From a virus, in the IMG/VR virus record IMGVR_UViG_3300041409_001215, positions 1 through 49,528 of that record: a DNA stretch of 49,528 nt, one strand, 5' to 3'. The stretch's first letter is position 1, and the number at the start of each line of letters is the position of its first letter. Shown here piece after piece: positions 18,392-48,025 of this stretch. A model generated the notes under the pieces. The model made no database searches. It saw only the letters and a program-made list of their open reading frames with translations, and was not told the DNA's origin. Position numbers and translations under genes: made by a program.

Positions 18392-18399
18392 CGACTATC
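18392..18399 (-). promoter_or_regulatory. GATAGTCG start-associated element
   Basis: GATAGTCG on the minus strand, 6 bases before the ATG at 18385. Flanks read CCGTCA and GCGGCG. Candidate -10 box of a leaderless late promoter, or start-associated sequence. Confidence 0.7.
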
Positions 18400-18406
18400 T
18401 GACGGC

Positions 18407-18928
18407 TCAGCAGAGGTGCTGTAGGTGGCGCGCCAGCGTGCAGAGGTCTTCCACCAGGGGGGCGACTTCGTCGGCAGCGACTTCCGCGGTTTCCTTAACC
18501 CCTTCGACAACGGTTCCCGACCCTGCTGTGGGTGCTTCTGGTTCAGGGCCCGGACCACCCGGGCTGGGCTGTGTCTCCGGGCCAGAGGATTCCCCCTGAC
18601 CCGGGGCTAAACCGGAGGGATTTTGATTTCCGCCAGGCACCACCCCCTTCTGAGTTGCTGATCGCATCAGCGCCAGGAATGCAGCACGACAGTCGTCATC
18701 GTGGGCGCAAGCACTGAGGCCGATCTCGATTCGCCGAGCGCAGGCGGCCAGATGGTGGGGGGTGTCGAGGGTCGATGCCCGACATGCGGCTGTCGCCCGC
18801 ACTACCCTCGTCACCTGCGGTTCGATCCGGTGGATGTCGGTCTGGGTCTCGTGGCTGGTGATGGCAGCGTAGATCGAGACGATCACGACCAGGCCGAAGG
18901 CCACTCCTTGTCGTGCAGGCCTACTCAC
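18407..18928 (-). CDS. Membrane-anchored Pro/Gly-rich lysis-region protein
   Basis: A 173-residue protein: an N-terminal span (GVAFGLVVIVSIYAAIT), a small domain with five cysteines (RATAACRAS, LAACARRIEIGLSACAHDDDC), a long Pro/Gly/Glu linker and a C-terminal helix with two more cysteines. The topology resembles phage spanin-like or lysis-accessory proteins facing the outside, where disulfides could form. The GTG start overlaps the holin-like gene by 8 bases. No enzymatic motif; function uncertain. Confidence 0.55.
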   Translation of the reverse strand: MSRPARQGVAFGLVVIVSIYAAITSHETQTDIHRIEPQVTRVVRATAACRASTLDTPHHLAACARRIEIGLSACAHDDDCRAAFLALMRSATQKGVVPGGNQNPSGLAPGQGESSGPETQPSPGGPGPEPEAPTAGSGTVVEGVKETAEVAADEVAPLVEDLCTLARHLQHLC

Positions 18929-19127
18929 GGCGCCGCTTTCCCAGCACGTCGATCAGCCCATAGGGCAGGACGAACTCGCCAACCCCCATCAGCACAGCGG
19001 CAACGACCAGCGTCACGGGCCGCTCGCCTGCGCGCCCGCTCAGGCCCTGCACGATGAACACCACGAAGCCGCCGAGCTTGAAGACGGTGTCGAGGGTCAG
19101 TGAGACGATCTCGCGTACGCGCGACAA
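18921..19127 (-). CDS. Two-span membrane protein, holin candidate
   Basis: A 68-residue protein from TTG 19127, preceded by GGGAGCAGG. Two hydrophobic spans (VFKLGGFVVFIVQGL and VTLVVAAVLMGVGEFVLPYGLI) are linked by a short polar turn (SGRAGERP), with a basic tail GKRRRE: the layout of a class II holin. It lies upstream of the two wall hydrolases. A GATAGTCG element further upstream points to a different, 22-codon frame (19097-19165), so the start may be translationally coupled to a leader peptide. Confidence 0.6.
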   Translation of the reverse strand: MSRVREIVSLTLDTVFKLGGFVVFIVQGLSGRAGERPVTLVVAAVLMGVGEFVLPYGLIDVLGKRRRE

Positions 19128-19165
19128 ACACCTGCTCCCTCTCCATCGATCGTGTCCGTTGCCAT
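19097..19165 (-). CDS. Possible 22-residue leader peptide
   Basis: ATG 19165 sits 4 bases from a GATAGTCG element, as at twelve other starts, but opens a frame of only 22 codons (MATDTIDGEGAGVCRAYARS...) that ends inside the holin-like gene. It may be a translational leader, or the remnant of a gene shifted out of frame. Confidence 0.3.
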   Translation of the reverse strand: MATDTIDGEGAGVCRAYARSSH

Positions 19166-19169
19166 GCCA

Positions 19170-19177
19170 CGACTATC
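19170..19177 (-). promoter_or_regulatory. GATAGTCG start-associated element
   Basis: GATAGTCG on the minus strand, 4 bases before ATG 19165. Its TAG is also the stop codon of the upstream tail gene (19173-19175). Confidence 0.65.
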
Positions 19178-20774
19178 CGCCGCGCAACTGTCCGTTCTGG
19201 GCGAGTCGGGTCTCCAGCGTGCTGATCGCATCGTTGGTTTGGTCGACCTCGACGGTGGTGACCGGTACCGACTTGCTCGCTGCGTCTACCGCGATCCGCT
19301 TGATCGGAAAGGTTGTGCGGCGGTCGGGGGTGGAGTCGAGCGCGAAGAGGGAAGGGGAGGGCAGGACATCAGGGATACGGAACGCGGAGCCATCGGCGCG
19401 CATGTAGTGCGATGGCAGCACCCCCCGGCTGACATGTCGGATCGGCTGCGAGATGACGACAGTGCCGCGAGCCGGCGCGAAGCCACCGCTGAGCGCGAGG
19501 ATGGCGTCCCCGAGCGTTTCAGCGCCCGCGGTTGTGAGCTTTCCGCCGTCGACGCTTTCTTCTCGAGGAATCCCATTGAGCTCGGGCACATACGCGGTTC
19601 GGGTGACAACGCGCTGAACGCCCGAGGCATCCGTGTAGTTGACATGGACGGTGTCGAAGAGCGTCGCTGTCTCAGAGTGAAGGTTGCAGCTGTCGCACTC
19701 GGAGCGAAAGGCGATCCACGTCGGGTCGCTGTCGATCGAGCGGTAGTCGAAGTAGCCGTCCGTCGATGTGTCGAGCGGCGAGTCCGGTCCCCAGGTTCCA
19801 TAAGTCCGATGGTTTTGCTCGTACCTGTTCAGCTCGGCAACGACGTCTTCGACCTTGGTCGGGTCGCGGAAGGCTGCCTGCTCGCAGACGAACGTCGTGT
19901 TGTCGATCCGGCGCAGCTGGACCCCCGCCGCGCGCCCCACTGCGTCGGCGACCATCTGCGAGATGAGGAAGCCTTCATTGGGTGCGACGCCTTGCTTGAC
20001 GAGGCTGTGGTCACCGAAATACTTGAGGTGTCGAAGCATCGCTCGGTACTGAGCGCCGTCGGCGCCGGCGCCAGTGAGTGCGTAGTACCACTGCCATGCG
20101 AGGACTCGCTTCCCGGTAGCGAGTTTGATCGTTCCTGACCCGGCGGAGACCCCGCCCGCGAGATCGCCATTGCTATGGAAGTTGGTCGGAGCATCGTCAT
20201 CGGCATCTGCGAGCTCCAAGATGAAATTCGGGTCCGTGGTGCTGAGAGTCCAGTCGACATAGACCGACGCGATCCTGATCTCTGACCCAACGTCGAGCAT
20301 GGCGAACGCAACCGGCCGCTGTGATTCCCAGTGTCCATCCAGCTCAAGGGCGATCGACGGGCGGCCTTCGGTGTCATCGGGCGCGACTGAGAAACCTGCC
20401 CCCGAATAGGAGGCCCCCCAACCGATGCGCCACTGCGCACTCGCTTCGGTCCATTCGCCAAGATCTCCGCTTACGTAGATCTCCTGCATGAAGGTGTCCT
20501 TGAGCCGCGCACCTAGGCCATAGGCCGTGACACCGATCTGCTCTGTGCTCTCGCCGCTGCGATCGGTCTCCTCGACGCGACCCTGCCAAAGCACGTCGAT
20601 GCCATCCATGACGCGAAGCAGGTTGCCCCGCTCGATCTCTGGGCTGCTCGCGAACCAGCTGCGCTTCAGCGTGAAGGTGCAGGTCTCGTCGCCACCGGGA
20701 TTGACCGAGGACCAGTTGAGGCCCTCGATGTCATCAGTGATGTCGTAGCTGCCGGAGACAACGCGGATCGCCAT
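19173..20774 (-). CDS. Minor tail protein
   Basis: A 533-residue beta-rich protein beginning MAIRVVSGSYDITDDIEGLNWSS, the style of siphovirus distal/minor tail components in which an N-terminal hub domain starts with an 'xVxxGxxxxxxxI' strand. The middle (PNFILELADADDD... and YGLGARLKDTF) suggests beta-sandwich modules; the end has DQTNDAISTLETRL, a short coiled coil. Third gene after the tape measure in transcription order, as expected for baseplate proteins. ATG 20774 is 5 bases from a GATAGTCG element. Confidence 0.7.
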   Translation of the reverse strand: MAIRVVSGSYDITDDIEGLNWSSVNPGGDETCTFTLKRSWFASSPEIERGNLLRVMDGIDVLWQGRVEETDRSGESTEQIGVTAYGLGARLKDTFMQEIYVSGDLGEWTEASAQWRIGWGASYSGAGFSVAPDDTEGRPSIALELDGHWESQRPVAFAMLDVGSEIRIASVYVDWTLSTTDPNFILELADADDDAPTNFHSNGDLAGGVSAGSGTIKLATGKRVLAWQWYYALTGAGADGAQYRAMLRHLKYFGDHSLVKQGVAPNEGFLISQMVADAVGRAAGVQLRRIDNTTFVCEQAAFRDPTKVEDVVAELNRYEQNHRTYGTWGPDSPLDTSTDGYFDYRSIDSDPTWIAFRSECDSCNLHSETATLFDTVHVNYTDASGVQRVVTRTAYVPELNGIPREESVDGGKLTTAGAETLGDAILALSGGFAPARGTVVISQPIRHVSRGVLPSHYMRADGSAFRIPDVLPSPSLFALDSTPDRRTTFPIKRIAVDAASKSVPVTTVEVDQTNDAISTLETRLAQNGQLRGG

Positions 20775-20779
20775 GCCGA

Positions 20780-22234: not shown

Positions 22235-22242
22235 CGACTATC
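22235..22242 (-). promoter_or_regulatory. GATAGTCG start-associated element
   Basis: GATAGTCG, 6 bases before ATG 22228. The TAG within it (22238-22240) terminates the tape measure gene. Confidence 0.7.
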
Positions 22243-27873: not shown

Positions 27874-28178
27874 TCAACCTCGGCCCCACCGCTGTAGAGC
27901 GAGACGACTAGGACACCGAGGCGTCGCGGGCCGATCGGCAGCTCCTCGAGGTCCGGCTGCTTAACCCGGAAAAGCTCGAGCACGCGGTCGTAGAGCTCCG
28001 ACAGGCGCTCCTGTCCGCTGCCCTCGGCCTCGGGGTCGTTCAGCGCTTCGACGAGCCGCTCGATTTCGATGTAGTCGGGGATCGGAATGTCCCCAGGGAT
28101 GTCGTAGACGACCCCGCCGCATTTCACTCCAAGGTTCTCCGGAACTGCCGCGTCGAGGTCGATGATCTTCTGGGCCAT
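27789..28178 (-). CDS. Tail assembly chaperone (G protein)
   Basis: A 129-residue protein (MAQKIIDLDAAVPENLGV...) located between the tail tube gene and the tape measure gene, the fixed position of the G/GT chaperones that coat the tape measure protein during assembly. The acidic, helical body (ERLVEALNDPEAEGSGQER, then YDRVLELFRVKQPDLEEL) is typical. The final 30 residues are Lys/Thr/Ser-rich (TPSTKKTPRKKSPGSKR), which suggests that the unshifted product simply runs into a frame designed for the shifted one. Confidence 0.82.
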   Translation of the reverse strand: MAQKIIDLDAAVPENLGVKCGGVVYDIPGDIPIPDYIEIERLVEALNDPEAEGSGQERLSELYDRVLELFRVKQPDLEELPIGPRRLGVLVVSLYSGGAEVEDDEKRPTRASTPSTKKTPRKKSPGSKR

Positions 28179-28254
28179 GAGGCCACCTCCGTTGTCGTGT
28201 GGACGTGCTGCGGGGAGGTGGTGCTGCGCCGGATCCGCTTACCGGCCGCCCTCA

Positions 28255-28270
28255 GAGAGCCGTGGCTCTC
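28255..28270. other. Short perfect inverted repeat in the chaperone leader
   Basis: GAGAGCC and GGCTCTC separated by GT, which as RNA would fold with a six-pair stem and a four-base loop. It lies between the orphan GATAGTCG element and the chaperone start, in a 113-base gap. No U-tract follows on the minus strand, so it is more likely a leader structure or weak pause site than a terminator. Confidence 0.35.
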
Positions 28271-28276
28271 CGTCGG

Positions 28277-28284
28277 CGACTATC
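28277..28284 (-). promoter_or_regulatory. Orphan GATAGTCG element
   Basis: GATAGTCG preceded by CCGTCA, but with no ATG at the usual spacing. The nearest downstream start is the tail chaperone at 28178, about 100 bases away, with a hairpin in between. If the element is a promoter this would be the one transcript with a long leader. Confidence 0.55.
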
Positions 28285-29655: not shown

Positions 29656-29663
29656 CGACTATC
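29656..29663 (-). promoter_or_regulatory. GATAGTCG start-associated element
   Basis: GATAGTCG within the palindrome CCGATAGTCGG, 6 bases before ATG 29649; preceded by CCGT. Confidence 0.7.
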
Positions 29664-30170: not shown

Positions 30171-30178
30171 CGACTATC
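30171..30178 (-). promoter_or_regulatory. GATAGTCG start-associated element
   Basis: GATAGTCG, 6 bases before ATG 30164; preceded by GCGGCA and, further up, TTCTGAAG. Confidence 0.7.
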
Positions 30179-31548: not shown

Positions 31549-32842
31549 CGAGGTCGAGCTCCGTTTTGTGGGCGGCGATCGTGAGTCGACTATCGGGCGC
31601 GGCGAGGGAGAGCCTCGCTGACCGGCTGGCGATGGTCAGCGTCGTCTGCCGACCCGCGATGGCCAGTGCGGTGTCGAGACTTGCGATGCCGAGTTCGACA
31701 GCCCGACCGGCGATCGTCATCGAGGTCTCGCGACCCTCGAGCTTCAGCTCGGTCGGAAGGTCGACGAAGGGAAGCACCGCGACGATGGCTTCGAGAGATG
31801 CCGAGAGCACGCCGCTTCCCGCGAGACTGGCTGCGAGCGCCAAGATCTGAGCGATTTCTCCGTTGAGTTCGCCTCGAGCCTCCAAGCTGGCGGCCATCGA
31901 AGCAAGCGCCATCAGCTCCCCACCCAAGACACCGCCGCCAGTCAGGGCGGCGGCCATCGACGCGAGCGCCCGTAGGTCACCGCTGAGCCCCCCTTGGCCG
32001 CTAAGTGCTGCCGCCATAGAGGCGATACCGCGCAGCTCGCCGGTGAGGATGCCCGTGCCGCTGAGCGATGCCCCCATGCTGCCTGCGGAGATCAGGGCGC
32101 CGGCGGCCGATCCGATCCCGGCGAGGGACGCTTCCATGTCGACGGGTCCGGATTCTTCTTTCGCCGCCGCTTCGAAAAGCGCTTTGACCTGAGCCCCGCT
32201 CAGCGCGCCAGGGAGAAGGAACGCCTCGTCGATTGTCCCGTCCAGGTGGTCGACGTTGTTGTAGGCCCCCCAGTACAGGAGTTCGTTGTTGGCGGTGACG
32301 TTGCCGGTCTTCGCGGCTTTCGTCAGTTCGACGCCATCGACGTAGAGGAAGACGTTGGTGCCGTCGTAGACGAAGGCGATGAAATAAGTCGTCCCCGTCG
32401 TGAGCGTTTTGGCGACTTTCGTGCTCGTGAAGCCACCTGATGTCCGCACCCCACAGGCCAGCCGCGTTGTCCCCGATTCGTTGCGGTAATCGATCGAGTA
32501 GGACTCGTTGGATCCGGCTGCGTTGGTCTTCGCGGCGATGGTGAAGAACTGCCCCGACGACGGCTGGGAGGTGAGCTTGACCCAGCAGCCCAGCGTGAAC
32601 GAGGCATCGCTGATGTCCGTCGAGGCGCCGTCTGGGACCGTGATCCGCTGGCTCGAGGCTCGGAGCAGCGTGACCGCTTTGTCGGAGTCGGCCGACAGGA
32701 GTCCTTTGACCCCCAGCGTCGGACCGTTGACGTAGGTGCCGTTGGACCCTGCGACTGCGACTGCCGTGGATCCGCTCGCGTCGTTCAGGCGGAGCCAGGA
32801 GAGCGGCGAGAGGGCTGCGAGAGCTTCGCTCCAGGCTGACAT
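31541..32842 (-). CDS. LamG-domain virion protein with two repeat arrays
   Basis: A 433-residue protein. Residues 10-225 are a LamG/concanavalin-A-like sandwich (LSWLRLNDASGSTAVAV, SFTLGCWVKLTSQPSSGQFF, YFIAFVYDGTNVFLYVDGV, HLDGTIDEAFLLPGAL), a fold that binds sugars. Residues 237-356 are six exact-length 20-residue repeats of the form AaxLsGxGxLxGeLxalaSM. Residues 370-432 are seven 9-residue repeats ending LxIA. No enzyme motif. Located with the connector genes rather than after the baseplate genes, it may decorate the head or neck and bind host glycans. Confidence 0.75.
   Translation of the reverse strand: MSAWSEALAALSPLSWLRLNDASGSTAVAVAGSNGTYVNGPTLGVKGLLSADSDKAVTLLRASSQRITVPDGASTDISDASFTLGCWVKLTSQPSSGQFFTIAAKTNAAGSNESYSIDYRNESGTTRLACGVRTSGGFTSTKVAKTLTTGTTYFIAFVYDGTNVFLYVDGVELTKAAKTGNVTANNELLYWGAYNNVDHLDGTIDEAFLLPGALSGAQVKALFEAAAKEESGPVDMEASLAGIGSAAGALISAGSMGASLSGTGILTGELRGIASMAAALSGQGGLSGDLRALASMAAALTGGGVLGGELMALASMAASLEARGELNGEIAQILALAASLAGSGVLSASLEAIVAVLPFVDLPTELKLEGRETSMTIAGRAVELGIASLDTALAIAGRQTTLTIASRSARLSLAAPDSRLTIAAHKTELDLDG
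31547..31735 (-). repeat. Seven 9-residue (27-bp) coding repeats
   Basis: Units GRETSMTIA, GRAVELGIA, SLDTALAIA, GRQTTLTIA, SRSARLSLA, APDSRLTIA and AHKTELDLD run without gaps at the C-terminus of the LamG protein. Alternating polar/hydrophobic residues suggest a small beta-helix or stacked strands. Confidence 0.8.
31587..31594 (-). promoter_or_regulatory. GATAGTCG copy inside a coding repeat
   Basis: GATAGTCG preceded by GCCC, within the APDSR repeat unit of the LamG protein, 38 bases before the ATG at 31548. Same orientation as the other copies but not at the usual spacing, so it may be coincidental. Confidence 0.3.
31775..32134 (-). repeat. Six tandem 20-residue (60-bp) coding repeats
   Basis: Residues 237-356 of the LamG protein. 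Leucines fall at 240, 260, 280, 300, 320 and 340, so the period is exactly 20. Typical units are AAALSGQGGLSGDLRALASM and AAALTGGGVLGGELMALASM. Confidence 0.85.
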
Positions 32843-33228: not shown

Positions 33229-33236
33229 CGACTATC
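33229..33236 (-). promoter_or_regulatory. GATAGTCG start-associated element
   Basis: GATAGTCG, 5 bases before ATG 33223; preceded by CGGTCA. Confidence 0.7.
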
Positions 33237-33244
33237 TGACCGCG

Positions 33245-33973
33245 CTACGGCACGTTCATATGGCACTCGGCGCAGCCCACGGGGCGGCCACCGATCTCGG
33301 TCTCCCAAGGCTGGATCGAGAGCGAGCCGATCGCGTCGTCGACATGCCCGACCACGCCAGCGCCGCTGGCGTCGAGGCAGCAGGTGGTGATTCGGCCGTC
33401 GGCCAGGACCACAGCCCAGCCTGAGCGGAGGAACTCGCAGGTGACCGAGCCCTCGGGAATGGAGACCTCCCAGTCAAGCTGGCCAGCCCAGTCGAACGCA
33501 AGCGTGGCGAACGAGGCGTTGGTGGCGGCGAGCAGCCCGGCTTTCTGCGCTGCGTCGATCGCGCCCTTCGCCTTCTCGGGGCGGTGGAGGGAGATATAGA
33601 TCTCCGGCTTGTACGGTGCGACTTCCTCAACGAGCTGCTCCGTCAGCAGTAGGCCGTTGGTCGAGAAGGTGATCGGGTTGCGAGGCAGGGCCTCGCGCGC
33701 GAGGCGGACGAAGTCAACGAAGTTGGGGTGCAGCAGGGCCTCACCGAGCCCGGTCAGCGCCAGCTCGCCCTGGGTGCCCTTGCGGTGGAAGTGCTGCGCC
33801 CATCCCAGTGCCCGCTCGAAGTTCGCCATGGAGATGTCCTCCTTGGCCCGGCCGCTCCCGCCGTCGGCGACCGGCTTATCGAGGTCCTTCGACGGGCAGT
33901 AGACACAGCGCAGGTTGCACTTCGAGCTGATCTCGATCTGGTGGATCGAGGTGATGGGGCGGGGGTACTGCAT
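33245..33973 (-). CDS. Radical SAM enzyme with SPASM-like C-terminus
   Basis: A 242-residue protein. CNLRCVYC near residue 19 is the CX3CX2C motif that binds the radical-SAM 4Fe-4S cluster; GLGEALLHPN corresponds to the S-adenosylmethionine-binding GGE-like motif; ITFSTNGLLLT and EIYISLHRPE are barrel strands. Late cysteines (TTCCLDASG, VGCAECH) could ligate a second cluster as in SPASM/twitch proteins. No precursor peptide is obvious, although small genes lie next to it. It heads the cell- or virion-modification island; substrate unknown. Confidence 0.82.
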   Translation of the reverse strand: MQYPRPITSIHQIEISSKCNLRCVYCPSKDLDKPVADGGSGRAKEDISMANFERALGWAQHFHRKGTQGELALTGLGEALLHPNFVDFVRLAREALPRNPITFSTNGLLLTEQLVEEVAPYKPEIYISLHRPEKAKGAIDAAQKAGLLAATNASFATLAFDWAGQLDWEVSIPEGSVTCEFLRSGWAVVLADGRITTCCLDASGAGVVGHVDDAIGSLSIQPWETEIGGRPVGCAECHMNVP

Positions 33974-34089
33974 CAGTCCCGGCCGTACTCAAGATCAGCC
34001 TGGATCTCGCGTTCGAGCCGCTGGCGCTCCTGCGAGCGGAGCATCTCGGCGACGGCGAAGACGGTCGCGACGAAGTCCTTGAACGTCAC
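33973..34089 (-). CDS. Very small helical protein (38 residues)
   Basis: Starts at GTG 34089, overlapping the fusion gene stop (GTGA), and ends one base into the radical SAM start. It begins MTFKDFVATVFAVAEMLRSQ, then a charged helix ending ADLEYGRD. It could be an accessory of the radical SAM enzyme or, speculatively, its peptide substrate, but has no cysteine and no leader/core layout. Confidence 0.5.
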   Translation of the reverse strand: MTFKDFVATVFAVAEMLRSQERQRLEREIQADLEYGRD

Positions 34090-35654
34090 GCCTCGACGAC
34101 CTCGCCCTCGATCAGCCCGGCGACCTGGCGCGCGACCCCGCCCCAGCCGAGGTCGGCCGCTGCCTTGGGTCCTGCAATCTGCGCCCACTTCTGCGTCTCG
34201 GTGTTCCTCAGCCCGTCGACGATCTCGCGCACGAAGCCAGCGCGCCAGCGGTCGCTGAGCGGCCCGGAGTTCACCAGACGCCCGACCTTCACGGTTTCCG
34301 AGAGCGCGCCCCAGTCAGAGGCGACGACCACGCAGCCGGCAGCCTGCGCCTCCATGGCCCCGATGCAGCTGGTCTCGTGGAAGGGCTGTCCGTGCGGCGT
34401 TGCGTAGGAGGGGTGCGCCCAGACCAGCGAGGTCCGCATCAAGCGCGCCAACTCCTGCTGGGGCAACGAGCCGAGCGCCGAGGTGCCCTCGGTGGCTGCG
34501 GCAAGCTCGCGGATGCGCTCGCGGTGCGCGGCGACGGTCGCGTCCTTCTCGGCGATGCGATCGTAGACCTCCGAGTAGCAGTAGGCGAGCTCGGCGTCGG
34601 GCACCTGCTCGCGGATCTTCGGCCATAGCTCGAGCAGGATGTCGAGGCCGCGGTCGGGGGACGAGGTGTAGAGGACGCGCTTCTTACGCTCCGGCGTCTC
34701 CCCGGCGAAATACGAGTGCTCGATGCCGTTGCGGGTCTGGCGCAGGCGCCCGCGCAGGAAGGGGTACATCCCGCTGACGTGTTCCTCGTGCCAGCGCGAG
34801 AGGACGAGGACGTGATCGAAGGCCTCGGCCCGGGCGGCGGTGAGGCGGTCGCCGGCGTCGGTGTCGTGCATCCACAGCAGCCGCGATCGGGCGTTGATGT
34901 GGCGATCGCCGACCTCGGGAATGCGGGAGGCAATCACGGCCAAGCGACGCTCCATCGGGTCGAAGACGCTGTGGTGGCGATAGATCACGTCGCGGAAGGC
35001 GCACTGCTCGACCTCGCCGTAGACCGTCACCACGTAGCCGATCTCAGAGAGCTGCTGGGCCAACCGAATTGCCGCCGTCTCCGAGCCCCCGAGGCCGCGG
35101 CTCTCGATGTCGTGTGGCGACCATGTCTCCCAGCCGGGCCCGGCGTAGATGGCGATCTCACCGCGGCGCTCGATGGGCGTATAGGCGGCGGCGGTCACGC
35201 CGTCGTGTCCTACCACCATGTCGCGCAACTGCCCCCTGCGGCGGAGAAGATCGGCCAGGTCGACCGCGCGAAATACGCGGAGATGATGCGGGTTCTGGCC
35301 CGTGCCGAAGGTGCCATCGGGAGTCGAGATGTAGACGGCACCGTCCGGCTTGCACATGGTCTCCAGAGCCTCAAGTAGAGCTTGAGGCTCTGGGACGTGC
35401 TCGATCACCTCGAAGGCAATCACCGCGTCGTAGCTGCCCGGTTCAAACTGGACGTGGCTGGCAACGTCGAGGGCATCACCGACAGCGAACTCGCCAGCAA
35501 AGTCCTCATCAGCGAAGCGCCGGCGGGCGACCTCGACCGCGTCCGCGTTCAACTCGATGCCGTCGACCTGGACCTCATGGCCCTGCTCGCGGAGCCGCCG
35601 AGCAAGCCAGAGGGCGACGTAGCCGTCATGGGCGCCACAGTCGAGGATCTTCAT
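34086..35654 (-). CDS. Methyltransferase-glycosyltransferase fusion
   Basis: A 522-residue two-domain protein. Residues 1-165 are a class I SAM-dependent methyltransferase (MKILDCGAHDGYVALWLARR, DGIELNADAVEVARRR, FEVIEHVPEPQALLEAL). From about residue 175 a GT-B, GT4-like glycosyltransferase follows: GLGGSETAAIRLAQQLSEIG, LLWMHDTDAGDRL, VLSRWHEEHV, RKKRVLYTSSPDRGLDILLEL, and the donor-site region HETSCIGAMEAQAAGCVVVAS. It could build and methylate a sugar on virion proteins or host surface glycan. ATG 35654 overlaps the small zinc protein (ATGA). Confidence 0.85.
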   Translation of the reverse strand: MKILDCGAHDGYVALWLARRLREQGHEVQVDGIELNADAVEVARRRFADEDFAGEFAVGDALDVASHVQFEPGSYDAVIAFEVIEHVPEPQALLEALETMCKPDGAVYISTPDGTFGTGQNPHHLRVFRAVDLADLLRRRGQLRDMVVGHDGVTAAAYTPIERRGEIAIYAGPGWETWSPHDIESRGLGGSETAAIRLAQQLSEIGYVVTVYGEVEQCAFRDVIYRHHSVFDPMERRLAVIASRIPEVGDRHINARSRLLWMHDTDAGDRLTAARAEAFDHVLVLSRWHEEHVSGMYPFLRGRLRQTRNGIEHSYFAGETPERKKRVLYTSSPDRGLDILLELWPKIREQVPDAELAYCYSEVYDRIAEKDATVAAHRERIRELAAATEGTSALGSLPQQELARLMRTSLVWAHPSYATPHGQPFHETSCIGAMEAQAAGCVVVASDWGALSETVKVGRLVNSGPLSDRWRAGFVREIVDGLRNTETQKWAQIAGPKAAADLGWGGVARQVAGLIEGEVVEA

Positions 35655-35830
35655 CGCTGCGACCCCGCTCGCGGCATGTCCCCGCCGCAGTCGGTGCAGA
35701 GCCGCATCTGCTCACCCTCGGTCGGTTCTCGGAGCGCGGTGAACTTGTGCAACCCGCAGTTCTCACATGGCAGGTACCCGATTGCATTCGCCTCCGCTGC
35801 CGCCTCGCGCTCTGCTTTTGTCAGCGTCAC
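35651..35830 (-). CDS. Small zinc-ribbon protein (59 residues)
   Basis: GTG 35830, overlapping the glycosyltransferase-TPR stop. It carries CENCGLHKFTAL and CTDCGGDMPR, four cysteines for one zinc ribbon of the type that ends many actinophage genomes' small DNA- or RNA-binding proteins. It is sandwiched between two glycosyltransferase genes with overlaps on both sides. Role unknown. Confidence 0.65.
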   Translation of the reverse strand: MTLTKAEREAAAEANAIGYLPCENCGLHKFTALREPTEGEQMRLCTDCGGDMPRAGSQR

Positions 35831-37260
35831 GCCGCGGCCTCTTCGAGCTGCTCGGTGATGCCACCAAGCAGGAACGCACAACGGGGCAAGTAGCTACCAA
35901 TCTCATCAACCTTCTCGTCCGGCGTGAAGTCCTCGGGCTTGCTACCGCCGCTCTCGTAGTGCTCGGCGTAGCTTGCTGGCTCCAGCAGCGGATAGACACG
36001 CTCGCGAAGCTGCGAGCGAAGGGCGACAACTTCGGCGTGGTCCTGGGCGAAGTGGGGAACGGTCTGCTCGAGCAGGATCAACGCCTTCAACTGCTCGTCG
36101 TGGTTGATCAGCTGGCGCGCAGCGGCGACGAAGGTCTGGGCGGTGGCGTCGCGCTGTCCCTGCGCGATCCATCCCTGACGAGCCTGCAGCAGGCCTTGGT
36201 GGTCGGGGACGACCGCGAGCAGCTCTTCGGCGACCTGCAATGCCTCCTCGATCCGGCCGAGCTGGGCGAGCGCGCTGGCGAGCACCATCCGCGGCAGCAC
36301 CGTGTAGTCGAGCGGGTTGACGATCAGCATCGTCTGCGGCTGGCCGCGGCGCAGGACCTCGCTGGCCCACTCGATCGCCTTCGGCCACTCTCCGCGCTTG
36401 TGGTAGGCCTCGGCCAAAGTCAGGTAGGAGTCCGGCCACTGGGGCATCAGCCGCAACGCCTCCATCGCTGTGTCGATCGCCTCGTCGTGGCGGCCCTGGC
36501 GGATCCGCACGCTGCCGAGCTTGCGGTGGATCTGCGCGCGCTCCTCGTCCCAGCCGGTCTTCAGCGTCAGGTAGCGCTCGAACAGCTCGCCGGCGCGGTC
36601 GATCTCGTCCTTGATCAGCAGCTCGGTGCCGAGATAGCCAACCACGCGGGGGTCTTCCGGCGCCTCCTCGATCCACTTCTCAAGGATCCGCAGGTTGCGC
36701 TCGTTGGAGTCGCTCGGGTCTGGCGGGTGGTTGTGGACCCACTCGACGACGTCGGGAGAGACCATCGACTGGGTGCCATGGATCAGCTGGGACTCGTGGA
36801 CCCGACCAACCCACTCACCGGCGCCGCGGCGCACGAGGCGCTCTCGGACGAGGTAGCAGGCGCAGTTGCCGTGATGGTCGCGCGCGTAGTCGTAGCCGCA
36901 GATGAAGCCCAGCACGTCGGGAGCGGCGTCGACAGCGAGCTGGCGCAGGTTCTGGGCGTTGCGCAGGACATCGTCGGCATCGGCCCAGCAGGTCCAGTCG
37001 GTACGCAGAAAGGAGTCGGCGTAGGCGCGCGCGGCCGCGAAGTCGTCGATCCAAGTGAAGCGGCAGACGTTGACGCCTAGCTCAAGGTCCTCCTCATGCT
37101 TGTCCGCCCAGGCTTCGAAGACGTCGATCGTCGCGTCCTCGGAGCCGGTGTCGACGAGGACGATCTGGTCGAAGGCACCCTCGATCGACTCCAGAAGGTT
37201 CGGAAGGGTCTTCTCCTCGTCGCGGACGATCAGTGCGAGACCAACAGTGGGTGCACTCAC
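35827..37260 (-). CDS. GT2-family glycosyltransferase with TPR domain
   Basis: A 477-residue protein from GTG 37260. Residues 1-210 are a GT-A, GT2-type domain: TVGLALIVRDEEKTLPNLL, QIVLVDTGSEDATIDV and the metal-binding DADDVLRN (CWADADD). Residues 225-430 are TPR-like helical repeats (ELFERYLTLKTGWDEER, DSYLTLAEAYHKRGEW, LASALAQLGRIEEALQVAEE), as in many bacterial SunS-like or surface-glycan GT2-TPR enzymes that glycosylate proteins or peptides. It works with the adjacent methyltransferase-glycosyltransferase fusion. Confidence 0.85.
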   Translation of the reverse strand: MSAPTVGLALIVRDEEKTLPNLLESIEGAFDQIVLVDTGSEDATIDVFEAWADKHEEDLELGVNVCRFTWIDDFAAARAYADSFLRTDWTCWADADDVLRNAQNLRQLAVDAAPDVLGFICGYDYARDHHGNCACYLVRERLVRRGAGEWVGRVHESQLIHGTQSMVSPDVVEWVHNHPPDPSDSNERNLRILEKWIEEAPEDPRVVGYLGTELLIKDEIDRAGELFERYLTLKTGWDEERAQIHRKLGSVRIRQGRHDEAIDTAMEALRLMPQWPDSYLTLAEAYHKRGEWPKAIEWASEVLRRGQPQTMLIVNPLDYTVLPRMVLASALAQLGRIEEALQVAEELLAVVPDHQGLLQARQGWIAQGQRDATAQTFVAAARQLINHDEQLKALILLEQTVPHFAQDHAEVVALRSQLRERVYPLLEPASYAEHYESGGSKPEDFTPDEKVDEIGSYLPRCAFLLGGITEQLEEAAA

Positions 37261-37508
37261 GCTGCGAGTCCTCCGCGCCGCAGCATCCGAACGCCACGGC
37301 CGCCGATGATCATGTCCTCCAGCCCCTCGTCGGCAACGCCGCGGTGCTTCAGCTCCGGCGCGATGTTCGTCTGCCCACGGCGGCGACGCTCCCAGTGGCA
37401 ACGCGCTGCGCCCATCTTCTCGACCCGGGCGCGGCGTCGGGCAGCGCGCCGCTCTCGGCGGCGCTGCTTCTCGGCAGCGCTCATCTTGCGCTTGCGCTTC
37501 ACGGCCAC
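37257..37508 (-). CDS. Small strongly basic protein
   Basis: An 83-residue protein from GTG 37508; the first 45 residues are Arg/Lys-rich (KQRRRERRAARRRARVEKM) and probably bind nucleic acid. The rest (GLEDMIIGGRGVRMLRRGG) is short and glycine-rich. It overlaps both neighbours (GTGA and TGA types). A capsid-interior DNA-binding peptide or a regulatory RNA binder are possible; nothing decides it. Confidence 0.55.
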   Translation of the reverse strand: MAVKRKRKMSAAEKQRRRERRAARRRARVEKMGAARCHWERRRRGQTNIAPELKHRGVADEGLEDMIIGGRGVRMLRRGGLAA

Positions 37509-37699
37509 AGCTCCGCTTCCGGCTGCTCCAGGGCCTTCGCGAGTGCCGCCTGCCGATGGGGCGGTGGCACTAGGCCATGCTCGATCATCGATAGGTAGCT
37601 GACCGAGATCCTCGCATTGCCTGCGACATCGACCAGCCGCTCACCGCGAGATTGACGGGCGGCCTTCACGGGGTGGACCGGCGTTTCAGAACTTGGCAT
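37499..37699 (-). CDS. XRE-type HTH regulator in the late region
   Basis: A 66-residue protein with GERLVDVAGNARISVSYLSMIEHGLVPPP, a complete helix-turn-helix of the XRE class, followed by ALAKALEQPEAELWP. ATG 37699 lies 6 bases from a GATAGTCG element. It is the first gene of the unit that runs into the modification island, and may regulate those genes. A regulator here, away from the immunity region, is unusual. Confidence 0.75.
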   Translation of the reverse strand: MPSSETPVHPVKAARQSRGERLVDVAGNARISVSYLSMIEHGLVPPPHRQAALAKALEQPEAELWP

Positions 37700-37705: not shown

Positions 37706-37713
37706 CGACTATC
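37706..37713 (-). promoter_or_regulatory. GATAGTCG start-associated element
   Basis: GATAGTCG within CCGATAGTCGG, 6 bases before ATG 37699; preceded by GCGT and, further upstream, TTCTGAAATTCGAATC. Confidence 0.7.
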
Positions 37714-37747
37714 GGACGCGATTCGAATTTCAGAAGTCCCCTACGGA

Positions 37748-39773: not shown

Positions 39774-40450
39774 CAGACCTTCTCCTCGGCGCGGACCTTG
39801 CGCAGCGCCTCTGCGTAGTCGCAGTCGTCCGCAGCCATGCGGGCTTCGACCTTCTCATTGAGCTCGAAGCGGTCCTCGTCGACGTTGTCGGGCGCCTCTT
39901 TACCGCTGCCGCCGTCACCGGAGCCACCGCGGCCGGAGGTGTTGGCGAGCTTCGGCAGCTTCTCGAGGATCTCGATGGTCTCCTCGGGCGCCTTGTCGTA
40001 AAGCTTTTGATAGGTCTCGCGCGTCTCATCCTTCGCGTCGACCCGGACCGCGTCGAGCGCCTTGGTGAAGGCGTCATCGAAGTCGCGCTGGTGCAGCTTG
40101 TCGGCGGCCTCCTTGCCGGCCTTGGAATCGGCCTGCAGAGCAGCGACGTCTTTGGCATCGAGAACGATCTTGCCCTCTGCCTTGGCCTTGTCCTCAAGGG
40201 ATTCGGTCTCCGGCTCGGCTTTCGCCTTGATTGCGTCGAGGATCTCCTGCTCGGCGGCGTCCTCTTTGAGGTCGAGGGCCTTCGCGATGCCGGCGGTGCC
40301 GGTCCGGGCCTTCAGCGCTTCGAGGATTTGCTCCTCGGTAGCGGCCTCGTCGAGCCCCAGCAGTTTGGCGATCTCCTTCATGCACGGGCGACTATCGGAC
40401 GCACCTGGCACGACGACGGAAGCGATGCGGTCGATGTCGATTGCGGCCAT
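39773..40450 (-). CDS. Capsid scaffolding protein
   Basis: Up to 225 residues. From Met24 it reads MKEIAKLLGLDEAATEEQIL, the usual opening of phage scaffolds, followed by long Ala/Glu/Lys helices (EDKAKAEGKIVLDAKDVAAL) and a C-terminal ARMAADDCDYAEALRKVRAEEKV that would bind the capsid. ATG 40450 adds a 23-residue N-terminal extension. Both possible starts have their own GATAGTCG element (40457 and 40389), so two forms may be made. Like other scaffolds it should be lost during maturation. No prohead protease gene of the usual S14/U35 type is nearby. Confidence 0.72.
   Translation of the reverse strand: MAAIDIDRIASVVVPGASDSRPCMKEIAKLLGLDEAATEEQILEALKARTGTAGIAKALDLKEDAAEQEILDAIKAKAEPETESLEDKAKAEGKIVLDAKDVAALQADSKAGKEAADKLHQRDFDDAFTKALDAVRVDAKDETRETYQKLYDKAPEETIEILEKLPKLANTSGRGGSGDGGSGKEAPDNVDEDRFELNEKVEARMAADDCDYAEALRKVRAEEKV
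40389..40396 (-). promoter_or_regulatory. GATAGTCG element, internal scaffold start
   Basis: GATAGTCG, 7 bases before the internal ATG at 40381; preceded by GCGTC. It lies inside the longer reading frame as codons GAT AGT CGC. Confidence 0.65.
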
Positions 40451-40456: not shown

Positions 40457-40464
40457 CGACTATC
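40457..40464 (-). promoter_or_regulatory. GATAGTCG element, upstream scaffold start
   Basis: GATAGTCG, 6 bases before ATG 40450, in the 30-base gap between the scaffold gene and the divergent plus-strand pair; preceded by AGCCG. Confidence 0.7.
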
Positions 40465-43835: not shown

Positions 43836-43843
43836 CGACTATC
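43836..43843 (-). promoter_or_regulatory. GATAGTCG start-associated element
   Basis: GATAGTCG within CCGATAGTCGG, 6 bases before ATG 43829. Upstream lies TTCTGAAATCC, also seen near the elements at 37706 and 46613. Confidence 0.7.
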
Positions 43844-43858
43844 GGGCGGCACCGGATT

Positions 43859-44080
43859 TCAGAACTCGGCGGCTGCGCTCTCGCGAAGGCGACGCTTTCG
43901 ATCAACCCAGCTCCGGGCGATAGCCTCTCTTTGTCGCTCATATCCTTCGGGGCTGACGTTGATCCTCTGCGCCCTATCCCAGCGCCGCAGCATGGCCTCC
44001 GCGATCTCTCCTGGGGCCACGGTGTAGGTGCCCGTTTCGACTTCGAGCTTGAGCTTGGCCAGCTTCGCCGCGTGGGACAC
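43859..44080 (-). CDS. FlgM anti-sigma-like small protein
   Basis: A 73-residue protein from GTG 44080. Residues 10-32 (LKLEVETGTYTVAPGEIAEAM) follow the FlgM signature in which a helix is followed by 'GxYxVxxxxIAExML', the part of FlgM that binds sigma-28. The rest is a charged helix (YERQREAIARSWVDRKRRL). It lies three genes downstream of the terminase and directly before the portal gene. With a sigma-factor-like gene nearby, an anti-sigma role is plausible, but similarity covers only about 20 residues. Confidence 0.5.
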   Translation of the reverse strand: MSHAAKLAKLKLEVETGTYTVAPGEIAEAMLRRWDRAQRINVSPEGYERQREAIARSWVDRKRRLRESAAAEF

Positions 44081-44607: not shown

Positions 44608-46128
44608 CTACAACGGTGCACTGGCAAGGCCACCGGCAATAGTGCTCCCGCGCTCTCGTTGCCGGCGGGGCTCGGCAATCTCGACGTTTGGCAGATCTCT
44701 CGCTGCGTAGGCGATCGTGTCGACCTGGTCATCGTGCTCGCCGGCGGGGAAAGCCAGCATCTCGGCCTCGAGATCACCGAGCCACTCTGCCCCACGCAGG
44801 TGGTAGACCTTCCCACCGCGGTAGAGCGCGCCGGCGGCCGAGGCGCGGGTCACCTTGTCTTTGTCGGGGAAGACCGGCTCAGCAGGGAAGCCGCGGCGGA
44901 GCATTTCCTGAATCAGCGTCGACTGGTAGCCGATCGACTCGACCTTGACTGCACCGCCTGCGTGGTGGTCCTCGAAGAACTCAGGCTGCTCGGGCCCGGC
45001 GATACGGTCGCGGATGACATTCCGCACCAGGAGGTCGCGCTTCGGCGTGACCCAGACCTCGGTCATCACCGTGTAGTCGGCGGTCTGTTTCTCCGAAGCC
45101 GCAAGGTCGACGTACTGGACCTTGCGGCAGTAGTCGAGCCCGAAGCTCTCGACCTCGCCGCCGGGCCGATGCAGCGTCACCAGGTCGCCATCGATCGTGA
45201 AGTAGTGGAAGTACTTGCGGGCGAAGATGCCGCCCTCATCCGGCGTGGGGCTGCCCTGGTACATGGCGGTGAACCAGTAGGGGCCGAGCACCTTTCGCGT
45301 GTGCTCCAGCCAGTCAGCTGAGTAACGCTCCGGCCAGAGCGCCTCGCCGGGCTCGCGGCCGAGTGGGTCGTCGTCCAGGGCAAGTGCCGGCAGGCGGATC
45401 TCGCGCACGGGATCGCCACCGTCATCTGACGCGGCGAGCATGCGGCCGGCGATGTCGTCCTGGTGCCAACGGGTCAGCAGCACGATCACCACAGCACCGG
45501 GCTCTAGCCGTGTGCGCGCCGTCGACAGCCACCACTCCCAATGCTTCTCGCGGATCACTTCGGACATCGCCTGCTCGGCGTTCTTGATCGGATCGTCGAT
45601 GATCAGCAGGTGGGCGCCCTTGCCGGTGATGGGTCCACCGACGCCGGCAGTGACCATCCCGCCGCGGTGGCCCTCCAGGCCCCAGCGCTTGGCCGCTCTG
45701 GAAGACGCATCGAGCTTGACCCCGTAGAGGTCAGGGCCATGCTCCTCGAGCAGGGACCGCGCCTTCAGCCCCCAAGAGGAGGCGAAATCGGCCTCGTAAG
45801 AGCAGAGGATGACGTGGCGCTCGGGGAAGGTGCCGATGAACCAGGCAGGCGTGTATTCGGAGACCTCCGTCGACTTGCCGTGACGGGGGCCAAGCTCGAT
45901 GAGGAGGATCTCGGGCCGGTCGTCGACCTCTTTTCCTGCAGCTGCTCGGCGCTGGCGCTCGTGGGCCCGGGCGACCGCCTCCATGATCTCTCTGTCGATC
46001 AGGCGGATGTGTGGCGGGAAGGCATAGCGACGAACAGCGCCCTGGTCGGCGAGCCGCTCATCGACGGCGATCGCCAGGCCGGCCGGGCTAGCCCTCGCGA
46101 GCGTCGGCAACGGCACTGACGAGCCCAT
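44608..46128 (-). CDS. terL: Terminase large subunit
   Basis: A 506-residue packaging motor. Walker A is ELGPRHGKST (residues 78-87), Walker B AHLLIIDDPIKN, followed by the coupling-motif region VVIVLLTRWHQDD. The C-terminal RNase H-like nuclease shows VDLAASEKQTADYTVM and the last acidic pair in GEHDDQVDTIAYA. Length and motif order fit the Terminase_6 type. It overlaps the small subunit by 41 bases; a later start is possible because the first 20 residues are not conserved in character. It cuts and pumps DNA through the portal encoded downstream. Confidence 0.95.
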   Translation of the reverse strand: MGSSVPLPTLARASPAGLAIAVDERLADQGAVRRYAFPPHIRLIDREIMEAVARAHERQRRAAAGKEVDDRPEILLIELGPRHGKSTEVSEYTPAWFIGTFPERHVILCSYEADFASSWGLKARSLLEEHGPDLYGVKLDASSRAAKRWGLEGHRGGMVTAGVGGPITGKGAHLLIIDDPIKNAEQAMSEVIREKHWEWWLSTARTRLEPGAVVIVLLTRWHQDDIAGRMLAASDDGGDPVREIRLPALALDDDPLGREPGEALWPERYSADWLEHTRKVLGPYWFTAMYQGSPTPDEGGIFARKYFHYFTIDGDLVTLHRPGGEVESFGLDYCRKVQYVDLAASEKQTADYTVMTEVWVTPKRDLLVRNVIRDRIAGPEQPEFFEDHHAGGAVKVESIGYQSTLIQEMLRRGFPAEPVFPDKDKVTRASAAGALYRGGKVYHLRGAEWLGDLEAEMLAFPAGEHDDQVDTIAYAARDLPNVEIAEPRRQRERGSTIAGGLASAPL

Positions 46129-46606
46129 GCAGCGCCTCCCTCACGGTGGGGTCGGAGAAATCGAGCTCGGTCTTGACTGGTCCGCCGTCCTCACCGGCGA
46201 GCTCAAGCGGCTGCCGCGGCTTTCCGTAGACGTAGGAGAGGACAAGCTTGAGCGCCTTCATCCCAAGCTCTGGATCGTCGACGTAGACGATCTCGTGGGC
46301 GCCCTCGGCCGTGTTCCACGTCTTGATCGGCTTGCCAGCACCAAGCGCAGCCTCGATTGGCGCCAGGTAGCGCTCGATGTCCTCCTCGATCCGGCGGCGC
46401 ATCTCCTCGTGGGGACGGGGAAGCCGGGGGCGGCCACCGAGCTTGCCAGCCTCCCCCGCCTGCTCCGGTGATCCAAACCGGGGCGAATCGGGATCAAGCG
46501 GGTGGGCGCCGCAGCGCTTGGTGCCCTTCAACGGGGGCGCCTTGCAGCGCTTGCCGGTCGCCTTGGACTTGCCAGTACAGCGGGGTGGTTTCTTCCCGGT
46601 CGCCAT
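46088..46606 (-). CDS. Terminase small subunit-like protein
   Basis: A 172-residue protein directly before the large subunit. The N-terminus (CTGKSKATGKRCKAPPLKG, then RCGAHP) is a Cys/His knuckle common in actinobacterial and phage small terminases and related DNA-binding proteins. The helical centre (EMRRRIEEDIERYLAPIEA) and GMKALKLVLSYVYGKPRQPL complete the usual layout. ATG 46606 lies 6 bases from a GATAGTCG element. It would recognise the packaging site. Confidence 0.78.
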   Translation of the reverse strand: MATGKKPPRCTGKSKATGKRCKAPPLKGTKRCGAHPLDPDSPRFGSPEQAGEAGKLGGRPRLPRPHEEMRRRIEEDIERYLAPIEAALGAGKPIKTWNTAEGAHEIVYVDDPELGMKALKLVLSYVYGKPRQPLELAGEDGGPVKTELDFSDPTVREALHGLVSAVADAREG

Positions 46607-46612
46607 CGACGG

Positions 46613-46620
46613 CGACTATC
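46613..46620 (-). promoter_or_regulatory. GATAGTCG start-associated element
   Basis: GATAGTCG, 6 bases before ATG 46606; preceded by GCGCCG and, further up, TTCTGAAATC. Confidence 0.7.
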
Positions 46621-46673
46621 CGGCGCGATTTCAGAAGCGGGGCACAGGCAGAAGCGGGTCGCGCGCCGCTCGC

Positions 46674-46925
46674 TTACGCGAGCTTGTGCCCGACCCGCTT
46701 AAGGCGCTCGAACGCCGCCCGCACTTCCGCCGGCGATGCTCCCGTGATGACGGCGATCTCCGCGCGCGAGTGATGCAGCGCGGCGAGCGTCCCAACCTTG
46801 GTGGCGAGTTCGACTTCGGCCCGCGCATCAGCGGCGAGCGCGGCGGTCAGCTCACGCAGGAAGTGGGACCGGGGCCTGGTGCGCGGTGGGCCGGATGTGC
46901 GTCTCGGCGCCGGCTCGGCCAGCAC
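46674..46925 (-). CDS. Sigma region 4-like HTH segment (second part of split sigma factor)
   Basis: In a different frame from the sigma region 2-like gene, ADARAEVELATKVGTLAALH and SRAEIAVITGASPAEVRAAFERLKRV form a helix-turn-helix resembling sigma-70 region 4. The only plausible start is GTG 46925, without a Shine-Dalgarno sequence and inside the upstream gene. Either it is a separate protein of 83 residues or the two frames are joined by a frameshift near 46860-46960 into one sigma-like protein of about 200 residues. Confidence 0.5.
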   Translation of the reverse strand: MLAEPAPRRTSGPPRTRPRSHFLRELTAALAADARAEVELATKVGTLAALHHSRAEIAVITGASPAEVRAAFERLKRVGHKLA

Positions 46926-47289
46926 CCGAGACGGACGAACTGCCGGCGGTGAGGAACTGGTCGAGTGAGATCGGCGTGTCGCGGTAGACCCATCGCCGTT
47001 TGCCGTCCTCACCGACGACCCGGACGTGCTCCGGGTGTCGGGAGTGCCAGGCATCGCCGAGGCGGCGAGGGAGGAACTGCGCGGCGAAGCCGCTGAACCG
47101 CCCTGCTTGCGCGTAGCCCGGTCGGTGCGGTTCGAACGTGGCGGCGAGGCCATAGAGGATGCAGATGCCATCTGCGACTAGCTCTTCCTTCTCGTGTTCG
47201 GAGGGTTGGATGCCCGAGCGCTCGATCGTCGCGCACACGAAACCTTCGACGTCGTCGATGTCGTGTAGCTGGACCGTCGTCGGGAGCAA
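46852..47289 (-). CDS. Sigma-70 region 2-like protein, candidate late regulator
   Basis: A 145-residue frame from TTG 47289. Residues 36-55 (ELVADGICILYGLAATFEPH) and 63-90 (GRFSGFAAQFLPRRLGDAWH...) follow the pattern of sigma-70 region 2, where a helix 'DLxQxGxxxLxxAxxxFdP' precedes 'F..yA...I...l.D..R'. After ISLDQFL the sequence becomes Ser/Gly/Ala-rich and stops, while a region 4-like segment appears in another frame. The position directly upstream of the small terminase is that of RinA/ArpU-type late activators. Assignment is by pattern. Confidence 0.5.
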   Translation of the reverse strand: MLPTTVQLHDIDDVEGFVCATIERSGIQPSEHEKEELVADGICILYGLAATFEPHRPGYAQAGRFSGFAAQFLPRRLGDAWHSRHPEHVRVVGEDGKRRWVYRDTPISLDQFLTAGSSSVSGAGRAGAETHIRPTAHQAPVPLPA

Positions 47290-47436
47290 ATCGTAAGCCC
47301 TACGCTAGTCCCTGGCCGGTGAGGTGAAGTTGGCCGGGGAATGATTTGCAGCGAGGCATCGTCGTCGAGTATCAGCCAGATGCTGCGAGCAGCCGTACTC
47401 ACTTCTTGGATTTCCGGCACCGCCGGGCGCGATCGT

Positions 47437-48012
47437 TCAACGGCGCTGCTGAATCTTGCGGGCGAGATCGGCCTCGAAGATGTGGGTGTAGACGACGGTC
47501 GTGCGAATGTCGGCGTGGCGGAGCAACTGCTGAACCTCCCGCACGTTGAAGCCCTCGCGCAGCAGCTCGGTCGCGTAGGTGTGGCGCAGCATGTGCGGAT
47601 GCACCGGTCGCTCAATGCCGGCGCGGCGCGCGTATCGGCCCGTCATTTCCCAGACGTACTTCCGGGAGACCTTCCCGCCCTTCAGTGTGGTGAAGAGCCG
47701 CGGTTTGCGCGCCGCGTATTTCCGGCGAACGACGATCCAGTTGCGCAGCAGCTCGGTGGCCTGATCATCGAGATAGACGAACGCCTCGCGGCCGCCCTTC
47801 GCCACCTCGGGGCGGAGATGGATCTGCCCATCGTCGAGGCGAACGTCGCGGAGATGGATGCCGATGGTCTCGCTGACCCGCAACCCGCACCGGTACATCA
47901 GCGTCAGCATGCAGAGGTTCCGCAGGCCGGTCGGCGCCGCTCGATTCGGCCTCGCGAAGAGCGCCTCGAGCTCAGTCGAGGAGAGCGTCTTCGGCAGCTT
48001 GCGGACAGCCAT
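47437..48012 (-). CDS. Minimal tyrosine recombinase (XerC/D-like catalytic domain only)
   Basis: A 191-residue enzyme with every catalytic residue in place: Arg45 (CGLRVSE), Lys72 (VAKGGRE), His140-x-x-Arg143 (HMLRHTYA), His166 (LRHADIRT) and Tyr175 (VVYTHI). It begins at residues that in XerD lie after the SAM-like core-binding domain, so that domain is missing altogether; normal Xer proteins are about 300 residues. ATG 48012 is 5 bases from a GATAGTCC element. It is the second recombinase in the window. A perfect 18-bp inverted repeat lies just upstream. Confidence 0.88.
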   Translation of the reverse strand: MAVRKLPKTLSSTELEALFARPNRAAPTGLRNLCMLTLMYRCGLRVSETIGIHLRDVRLDDGQIHLRPEVAKGGREAFVYLDDQATELLRNWIVVRRKYAARKPRLFTTLKGGKVSRKYVWEMTGRYARRAGIERPVHPHMLRHTYATELLREGFNVREVQQLLRHADIRTTVVYTHIFEADLARKIQQRR

Positions 48013-48017
48013 ACAGC

Positions 48018-48025
48018 GGACTATC
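48018..48025 (-). promoter_or_regulatory. GATAGTCC start-associated element (variant)
   Basis: GATAGTCC, with the final base changed from G to C, 5 bases before ATG 48012; preceded by GCGCG. Confidence 0.6.

Follow-up and report, generated by a model that had tools for sequence, protein, structure and literature searches.

Late transcription in phage T4 involves gp55, gp33 and gp45 and uses promoters that consist of a −10 element only, which are served by a sigma-domain-2 protein together with a mimic of sigma domain 4 (PMC2988020). The late promoters of phage SPO1 have the consensus CGTTAGA-N17-19-GATATT and depend on the sigma factor gp33/gp34 (PMC3601020). In cluster K mycobacteriophages, short one-way repeats, the start-associated sequences (SAS) and extended start-associated sequences (ESAS), lie 3-9 bp before the ATG in 11-19 copies per genome, a subset of them with an upstream inverted repeat (PMC3203893, PMC11373665); the SAS is defined as the 13-bp sequence GGGATAGGAGCCC with at most two mismatches, has the core of a Shine-Dalgarno (SD) sequence inside it and belongs to non-structural genes (PMC3203893). 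At actinobacterial leaderless promoters, the −10 element is followed within a few bases by an ATG that doubles as position +1, and no SD sequence is present (PMC4633059). In this study we analyzed positions 1-49,528 of the virus record IMGVR_UViG_3300041409_001215 (the window, W; 49,528 nucleotides), in which an octamer, GATAGTCG, recurs on one strand, mostly directly in front of start codons. We consider this octamer probably to be the −10-only late promoter core of a temperate siphophage, read by a phage-encoded two-domain sigma-like factor and giving mRNAs that are mostly leaderless.

The motif in the window and in related contigs

Sites were counted on both strands of the window. The minus strand carries 14 exact copies of GATAGTCG and one GATAGTCC (at 48018), and all 15 coordinates listed in the original prediction proved correct. 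In 100 dinucleotide shuffles of the whole window the two strands together gave 0.93 ± 0.95 copies, with a maximum of 4, and none of the shuffles (0/100) reached 15, which upholds the claimed excess over chance. A recount also bore out that 13 of the 15 sites lie 4-7 bases from an ATG, the exceptions being 28277 and 31587. One more exact GATAGTCG, on the plus strand at 7848, is contained in a gene encoded on the opposite strand and seems to be an unremarkable chance match. Along the direction of transcription the series of sites begins at a recombinase gene, passes the small terminase gene (TerS) and the portal gene and continues into the tail region; no GATAGTCG is found on the coding strand of the remaining half of the window, which holds Sak4-like, methyltransferase and integrase genes. 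All contigs used for comparison were metagenomic virus records, and a terminase search of IMG/VR supplied the close relatives G001 (87% at TerL), G002 (76%) and G003 (65%). The sites in the window, with gene lengths in amino acids (aa), are:

18392..18399, minus strand: GATAGTCG, 6 nt before the ATG of a 183-aa gene; the context is the same in G001
19170..19177, minus strand: GATAGTCG, 4 nt before the ATG of a frame of a mere 22 codons
20780..20787, minus strand: GATAGTCG, 5 nt before the ATG of a 533-aa tail-region gene
22235..22242, minus strand: GATAGTCG, 6 nt before the ATG of a 477-aa tail-region gene
28277..28284, minus strand: GATAGTCG, no adjoining start; the ATG of a putative tail-chaperone gene is at 28178
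29656..29663, minus strand: GATAGTCG, 6 nt before the ATG of a 117-aa gene
30171..30178, minus strand: GATAGTCG, 6 nt before the ATG of a 161-aa gene
31587..31594, minus strand: GATAGTCG, 38 nt before the ATG of a 133-aa gene with an SD sequence (CGGAG)
33229..33236, minus strand: GATAGTCG, 5 nt before the ATG of a 123-aa gene
37706..37713, minus strand: GATAGTCG, 6 nt before the ATG of a 66-aa helix-turn-helix (HTH) gene
40389..40396, minus strand: GATAGTCG, 7 nt before the second in-frame ATG of a 225-aa gene (202-aa product)
40457..40464, minus strand: GATAGTCG, 6 nt before the first ATG of the same 225-aa gene
43836..43843, minus strand: GATAGTCG, 6 nt before the ATG of the portal gene
46613..46620, minus strand: GATAGTCG, 6 nt before the ATG of the putative small terminase gene
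47366..47373, minus strand: variant GATACTCG, 6 nt before the ATG of an 18-codon frame, upstream of a gene whose product resembles sigma region 2 (the sigma2-like gene, below)
48018..48025, minus strand: GATAGTCC, 5 nt before the ATG of a tyrosine recombinase gene

The gene that follows the site at 19170 (68 aa) has an SD-like GGAG stretch of its own upstream. At 40389 and 40457 two motifs stand 68 bp apart at a single gene; the pair is kept in G001, and the inner one alone in G002.

The distance from the motif to the start codon is held in related phages, where the original prediction had proposed to look for it: the start codon follows the final T of GATAGT at 6-11 nt, with a mode of 8, and never at less than the usual minimal distance between a −10 element and +1. 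Motif-adjacent starts lack SD sequences, as had been claimed, since an SD 4-mer was found at 3% of 96 such starts in eight contigs versus 13% at random ATG/GTG codons; the companion claim that early genes have SD sequences, judged by eye, holds for many of them but not for all. Most of the conserved motif sites that are not adjacent to a start have an SD-led gene downstream. No conserved −35 element was detectable in any contig group.

Orthologous genes also differ in how motif and SD sequence are combined. The motif at 28277 stands ~95 nt before the tail-chaperone-like gene, and G001, G002 and G036 keep the leader and the SD sequence, G036 in a shorter form; in W, G001 and G002 the motif is 74-100 nt upstream of this gene with an SD sequence present, and in G017 and G033 it lies directly at the ATG of the orthologue. 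The layout at 31587, with the motif upstream of an SD-led gene, recurs in G001 and G036, and in G002 the ATG of a similar gene is directly preceded by the motif. TerL has an SD sequence and no motif in W and a motif in G018, G033 and G036. Because orthologues switch between an adjacent layout without an SD sequence and a distant layout with one, we regard the site as a promoter rather than a translation signal: a motif beside the ATG would give a leaderless mRNA in which no SD sequence is possible, and a motif further off would give a leader that needs one. From this pattern we infer that promoter function of the motif is very likely, with transcription probably starting close to the ATG, and leaderless starts at most motif genes are only a little less so.

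Related contigs carry the same arrangement. G001 and G002 have 13 copies each, exclusively on the late strand, and G003 has four copies of GATAGTCA. Pattern searches added G017, G018, G033 and G036, whose late proteins are mostly ~30-50% identical to those of the window and still have the motif in front. Counted over nine related contigs together, the late-gene strand has 100 copies of GATAGTCG and the other strand 4, and the portal start carries the motif in all eight phages compared and a drifted form of it in further relatives. Eight further contigs were picked by a portal-alignment search that was blind to the motif; in these, the coding strand has 25 occurrences of the motif or a variant at 6-9 nt before a start, versus 0 on the other strand, and the same test in the original contig set gave 93 versus 0. 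When viral contigs were scanned with a loose 14-base form of the motif, most of those returned had one chance-like match each. No nucleotide match to the window was found among named phages, and a terminase search of bacterial genomes returned no close prophage.

The bases around the core vary with distance. The base two before GATA is C in 43 of 43 sites of W, G001 and G002, an invariance lost in more distant relatives. The original remark that T never directly precedes GATA is true of the window, whereas relatives often have T in this position. G033 (IMGVR_UViG_3300037852_000143) has 19 copies of GATAGTCGCCGGCG, 14 bases of which are almost invariant, with the start codon 0-3 bases after them and nothing conserved upstream. 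In G033 and L246-L248 the copies look as if homogenised inside one genome, other phages varying at those bases, and a part of the sequence, CGCCGGCG, is palindromic.

Sigma-like genes near the small terminase gene

Motif phages whose contigs cover the TerS end have in common a pair of adjacent genes there, encoded in the window by two overlapping open reading frames (ORFs):

46852..47289, minus strand: sigma-region-2-like protein of 145 aa with a TTG start, the candidate promoter-recognition factor
46674..46871, minus strand: sigma-region-4-like (sigma4-like) HTH of ~65 aa in the +1 frame, overlapping the end of the sigma2-like gene

The sigma2-like proteins share the pattern E-[DE]-L-x-x-[ED]-G-x-x-x-L ... 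F-S-G-[FYH]-A-x-x-[FY]-[LF]-P-R, then SLD, which aligns with sigma region 2, and the sigma4-like product has one long helix followed by an HTH. In hhalign comparisons with alignments of real sigma factors from four genomes, with 120 column shuffles as the null, the sigma2-like ORF matched sigma region 2 with P 0.008 and the region-4-like ORF matched sigma C-termini with P 0.0002, and in neither case was a shuffle as good (0/120); the crossed comparisons (sigma2-like with region 4, sigma4-like with region 2) were null, and the comparison was repeated with more sequences. With Foldseek, the most probable matches of the sigma2 model were sigma domains 2 (SigA 0.63, SigH 0.60, SigE 0.54) and the top match of the sigma4 model was SigH (0.92), with E-values that were not significant for either model. 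A single ORF of 206-235 aa holds both domains in L312, where their order is sigma2-sigma4, and weakly so in L310 and L311. In the window the sigma4 frame runs in +1 across the stop of sigma2, and in G033 and G036 it has its own start; the overlap at 46674-47289 could reflect a programmed +1 frameshift or a recent fission.

The distribution of the sigma2-like family follows that of the motif. A search with the sigma2-like alignment returned solely motif-bearing phages, including a new contig, L273, in which GATAGTC occurs six times forward and never in reverse, almost always at a start. The sigma2 profile matched L310-L314, L317 and L318 (the last being the same contig as L273) and gave no match in L308, L309, L320, L014 and G017; in four of these the result is explained by contigs that miss the sigma2 end, since L308 and L309 have no TerL, L320 is cut in TerL and G017 ends near it. 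A tblastn search of named phages with the sigma2-like protein found no match. Variants of the motif stand upstream of the sigma2-like gene itself (GATACTCG in W and G002, GATAATCG in G001, GATAGTCA in G033 and GATAGTCC in L273), which suggests that the gene may be autoregulated. In G033, GATAGTCA ahead of the gene is followed by a 12-bp hairpin.

The original prediction suggested that GATAGT may be a −10 box and pointed to actinobacterial leaderless genes. The motif does not look like an ordinary −10 box of actinobacterial sigma-A, because it invariably begins with G and conserves a core of 8 bases (14 in G033); the phage pair is the likelier reader. We infer that the pair is likely, if remotely, of sigma type, and it is likely that the phage sigma is the reader of the motif. 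The sigma2/sigma4 factor would then bring the host core RNA polymerase to GATAGTCG late. Transcription would start ~6-9 nt after GATAGT, so that in most late mRNAs the AUG would form the 5′ end or lie only a few bases from it; short leaderless transcription units would result, and the few upstream promoters would give leadered mRNAs with an SD sequence.

Several observations weigh against this interpretation. Besides the lack of significance of the Foldseek E-values, the sigma2 model is of moderate quality (pLDDT 65), no Pfam or PHROG sigma call was above cut-off for the window pair (best Sigma70_r2 E 0.078, Sigma70_r4_2 E 0.065), and the likeness to region 4 is essentially that of an HTH. In G001 no obvious start codon precedes the conserved part of the region-4 ORF, and L014 has a motif variant, yet no sigma2 match in the 2.7 kb upstream of TerL. 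The sigma2-like gene is itself placed among the late genes, which leaves the start of the cascade unexplained. We are also unsure of a classical −10 reading base by base, because GATAGCCC-type variants have C for the would-be −7 T. The sigma-like proteins of relatives likewise gave no Pfam sigma model above the curated cut-off, and in a sequence search of the PDB the sigma2 profile had no match and the sigma4 profile had only weak, mixed ones.

Other readings and neighbouring features

The alternative that survives best keeps the leaderless late promoters but has them read by an alternative sigma factor of the host, the phage ORFs being an anti-sigma factor, a coactivator or a DNA-binding protein. 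It would draw on the same promoter evidence, and it gains from the remoteness of the sigma call on the phage ORFs, from the best-scoring portal and integrase relatives, which are largely actinobacterial phages, and from mycobacteria, in which nearly one-quarter of transcripts are leaderless (PMC4633059). We nevertheless consider it unlikely, since the sigma2-like gene and the motif occur together in contigs of diverse kinds, and terminase relatives without the motif lack the gene as well: the 12 distant TerL relatives gave no match to the sigma2 family, and those of them scanned for the motif show none before starts. Moreover, the motif drifts where sigma2 has diverged; the portal-picked contigs have the drifted forms GATAGCCC, GATAGCCG, GATAGTTC and GATAATCC, and drift was found in relatives whose sigma2 diverges more.

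A signal in the mRNA that marks the translation start and is read by the ribosome or a phage factor, as proposed for cluster K, would account for the tight linkage to the ATG, for a motif that stands in for the SD sequence and for the 14 near-identical bases at the 19 sites of G033, which reach up to the start codon. Such a signal would be idle at 40-100 nt upstream of a start, where conserved copies stand ahead of SD-led genes, and would not be expected to swap layouts between orthologues, which makes this reading decidedly improbable. Stoperators, that is, operators at which a prophage repressor would silence the late genes, had been offered as an alternative in the original prediction, and the sites are indeed dispersed, one-way and near starts in a phage with an integrase; however, the early and integrase half of the window, where repressor operators would be expected, has no minus-strand copy, and exclusion of SD sequences would not be expected, so that we give this possibility very little weight. 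Equally little weight falls on boundary sequences for modular recombination or packaging, which would explain sites at gene borders but not the fixed 6-9 nt spacing to starts, the exclusion of SD sequences or the within-gene copy at 40389 with its own in-frame ATG. Dispersed late promoters whose starts would be mostly leaderless, largely as first proposed, give the best fit to the spacing, the absence of a −35 element, the layout switching and the SD pattern.

A second element, TTCTGAAA (often in the form of the palindrome TTTCTGAAA), occurs in six copies in the window versus 0.4 expected, at 15047, 22211, 37684, 37728, 43857 and 46629, mostly near late promoters; roughly one motif in four has it 15-16 or 21-27 bp upstream. 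Its placement is most consistent at the 66-aa HTH gene:

37499..37699, minus strand: 66-aa HTH_31 (XRE-type) protein, kept in all eight phages compared
37728..37735, minus strand: TTCTGAAA, 22 bp ahead of the 37706 motif; another copy, 37684-37691, is inside the start of the HTH gene
43857..43864, minus strand: TTCTGAAA, 21 bp upstream of the portal motif
46629..46636, minus strand: TTCTGAAA, 16 bp upstream of the small terminase motif

The XRE-type HTH protein would be the natural candidate for a binder of TTTCTGAAA. We rejected the palindrome as a −35 element, because its spacing to GATAGT varies (15-16, 21-22 or 24-27 bp) and most sites have no palindrome.

The distant site at 28277 precedes a leader that can be folded:

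28175..28271, minus strand: predicted leader RNA with a hairpin at its 5′ end and, between the SD sequence GGAGGUGG and CCACCUCC, a helix of 8 bp

The 8-bp pairing is identical in the three phages W, G001 and G002, and the anti-SD-like CCACCUCC upstream of the tail-chaperone SD sequence could regulate translation. The leader was not retained as an unusually stable RNA, its folding energy being unexceptional against shuffles, and the window had no match to known RNA families.

Two tyrosine recombinases are encoded on the minus strand, one at 47437-48012, which heads the late block with its own motif, and the integrase at 541-1863, at the opposite end of the window. Between the capsid and tail genes (33245-37401, minus strand) lie genes for a radical-SAM protein, a methyltransferase-glycosyltransferase fusion and a beta-1,4-glycosyltransferase-like protein, the last of which is retained in all eight phages compared.

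Comparison with described systems

Taken to its full extent, the interpretation would be of an undescribed temperate siphophage clade whose late transcriptome is largely leaderless and comes from ~15-20 −10-only promoters joined directly to start codons. A co-evolving private ECF-like sigma factor, made as one protein or two (possibly joined by a +1 frameshift), would read these promoters, and an XRE protein would act at TTTCTGAAA on a subset of them; in this complete form we put the interpretation forward tentatively. If it is correct, late control of a whole phage group would rest on an 8-base word and a small sigma pair, promoter and translation start would be one element, and the drift of the promoter with the protein would provide a natural series of sigma/promoter pairs. 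It would also give a possible precedent for the action of start-associated repeats in other actinobacterial phages and, because the genes lack SD sequences, a practical rule for start-codon assignment in genomes of this kind. In the open-access literature we found no account of phages in which late-gene promoters of this type are fused to the start codon.

Of the described systems, T4 late transcription shares with the window many dispersed short −10-type elements, the absence of −35 conservation and perhaps a split factor comparable to gp55/gp33, a likeness that depends on the remote similarity of two adjacent ORFs. It differs in having a TATA box in place of the core GATAGTCG, and in the window the starts abut the ATG, the phage is a temperate siphophage and the factor is encoded by overlapping ORFs near TerS that are fused in relatives. 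For the sliding clamp, which activates the T4 system, no gene was noticed among those annotated, though no systematic search for one was made. SPO1 likewise has a two-protein phage factor, and its GATATT is one base off GATAGT; in contrast to SPO1, the window phages have no detectable −35 and are GC-rich siphophages, whereas SPO1 is a myophage of low-GC Bacillus. We found no sequence link between the window pair and either T4 gp55/gp33 or SPO1 gp33/gp34, and membership in these families is not claimed.

The likeness to cluster K that had been pointed out holds for position before starts, single orientation and number, and GATAG is found in both, but fails for sequence, SD content and gene class (PMC3203893): the element here is GATAGTC[GAC], has no SD sequence and stands ahead of structural genes (terminase, portal, tail region). 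The sigma-like pair resembles the two-domain ECF sigma factors in having region-2-like and region-4-like parts only, which measure ~200-235 aa where they are fused (L310, L312), and differs from them in being below all Pfam thresholds and split in two ORFs here. ECF promoters possess a −35 element, for which there is no counterpart here. The SAS are not known to have a sigma-like partner. Finally, the sites match actinobacterial leaderless promoters in the position of the presumed −10 element and the absence of SD sequences at the starts, but there the element is the −10 hexamer of the host, whereas here it is an invariant, G-initial octamer private to the phage group.

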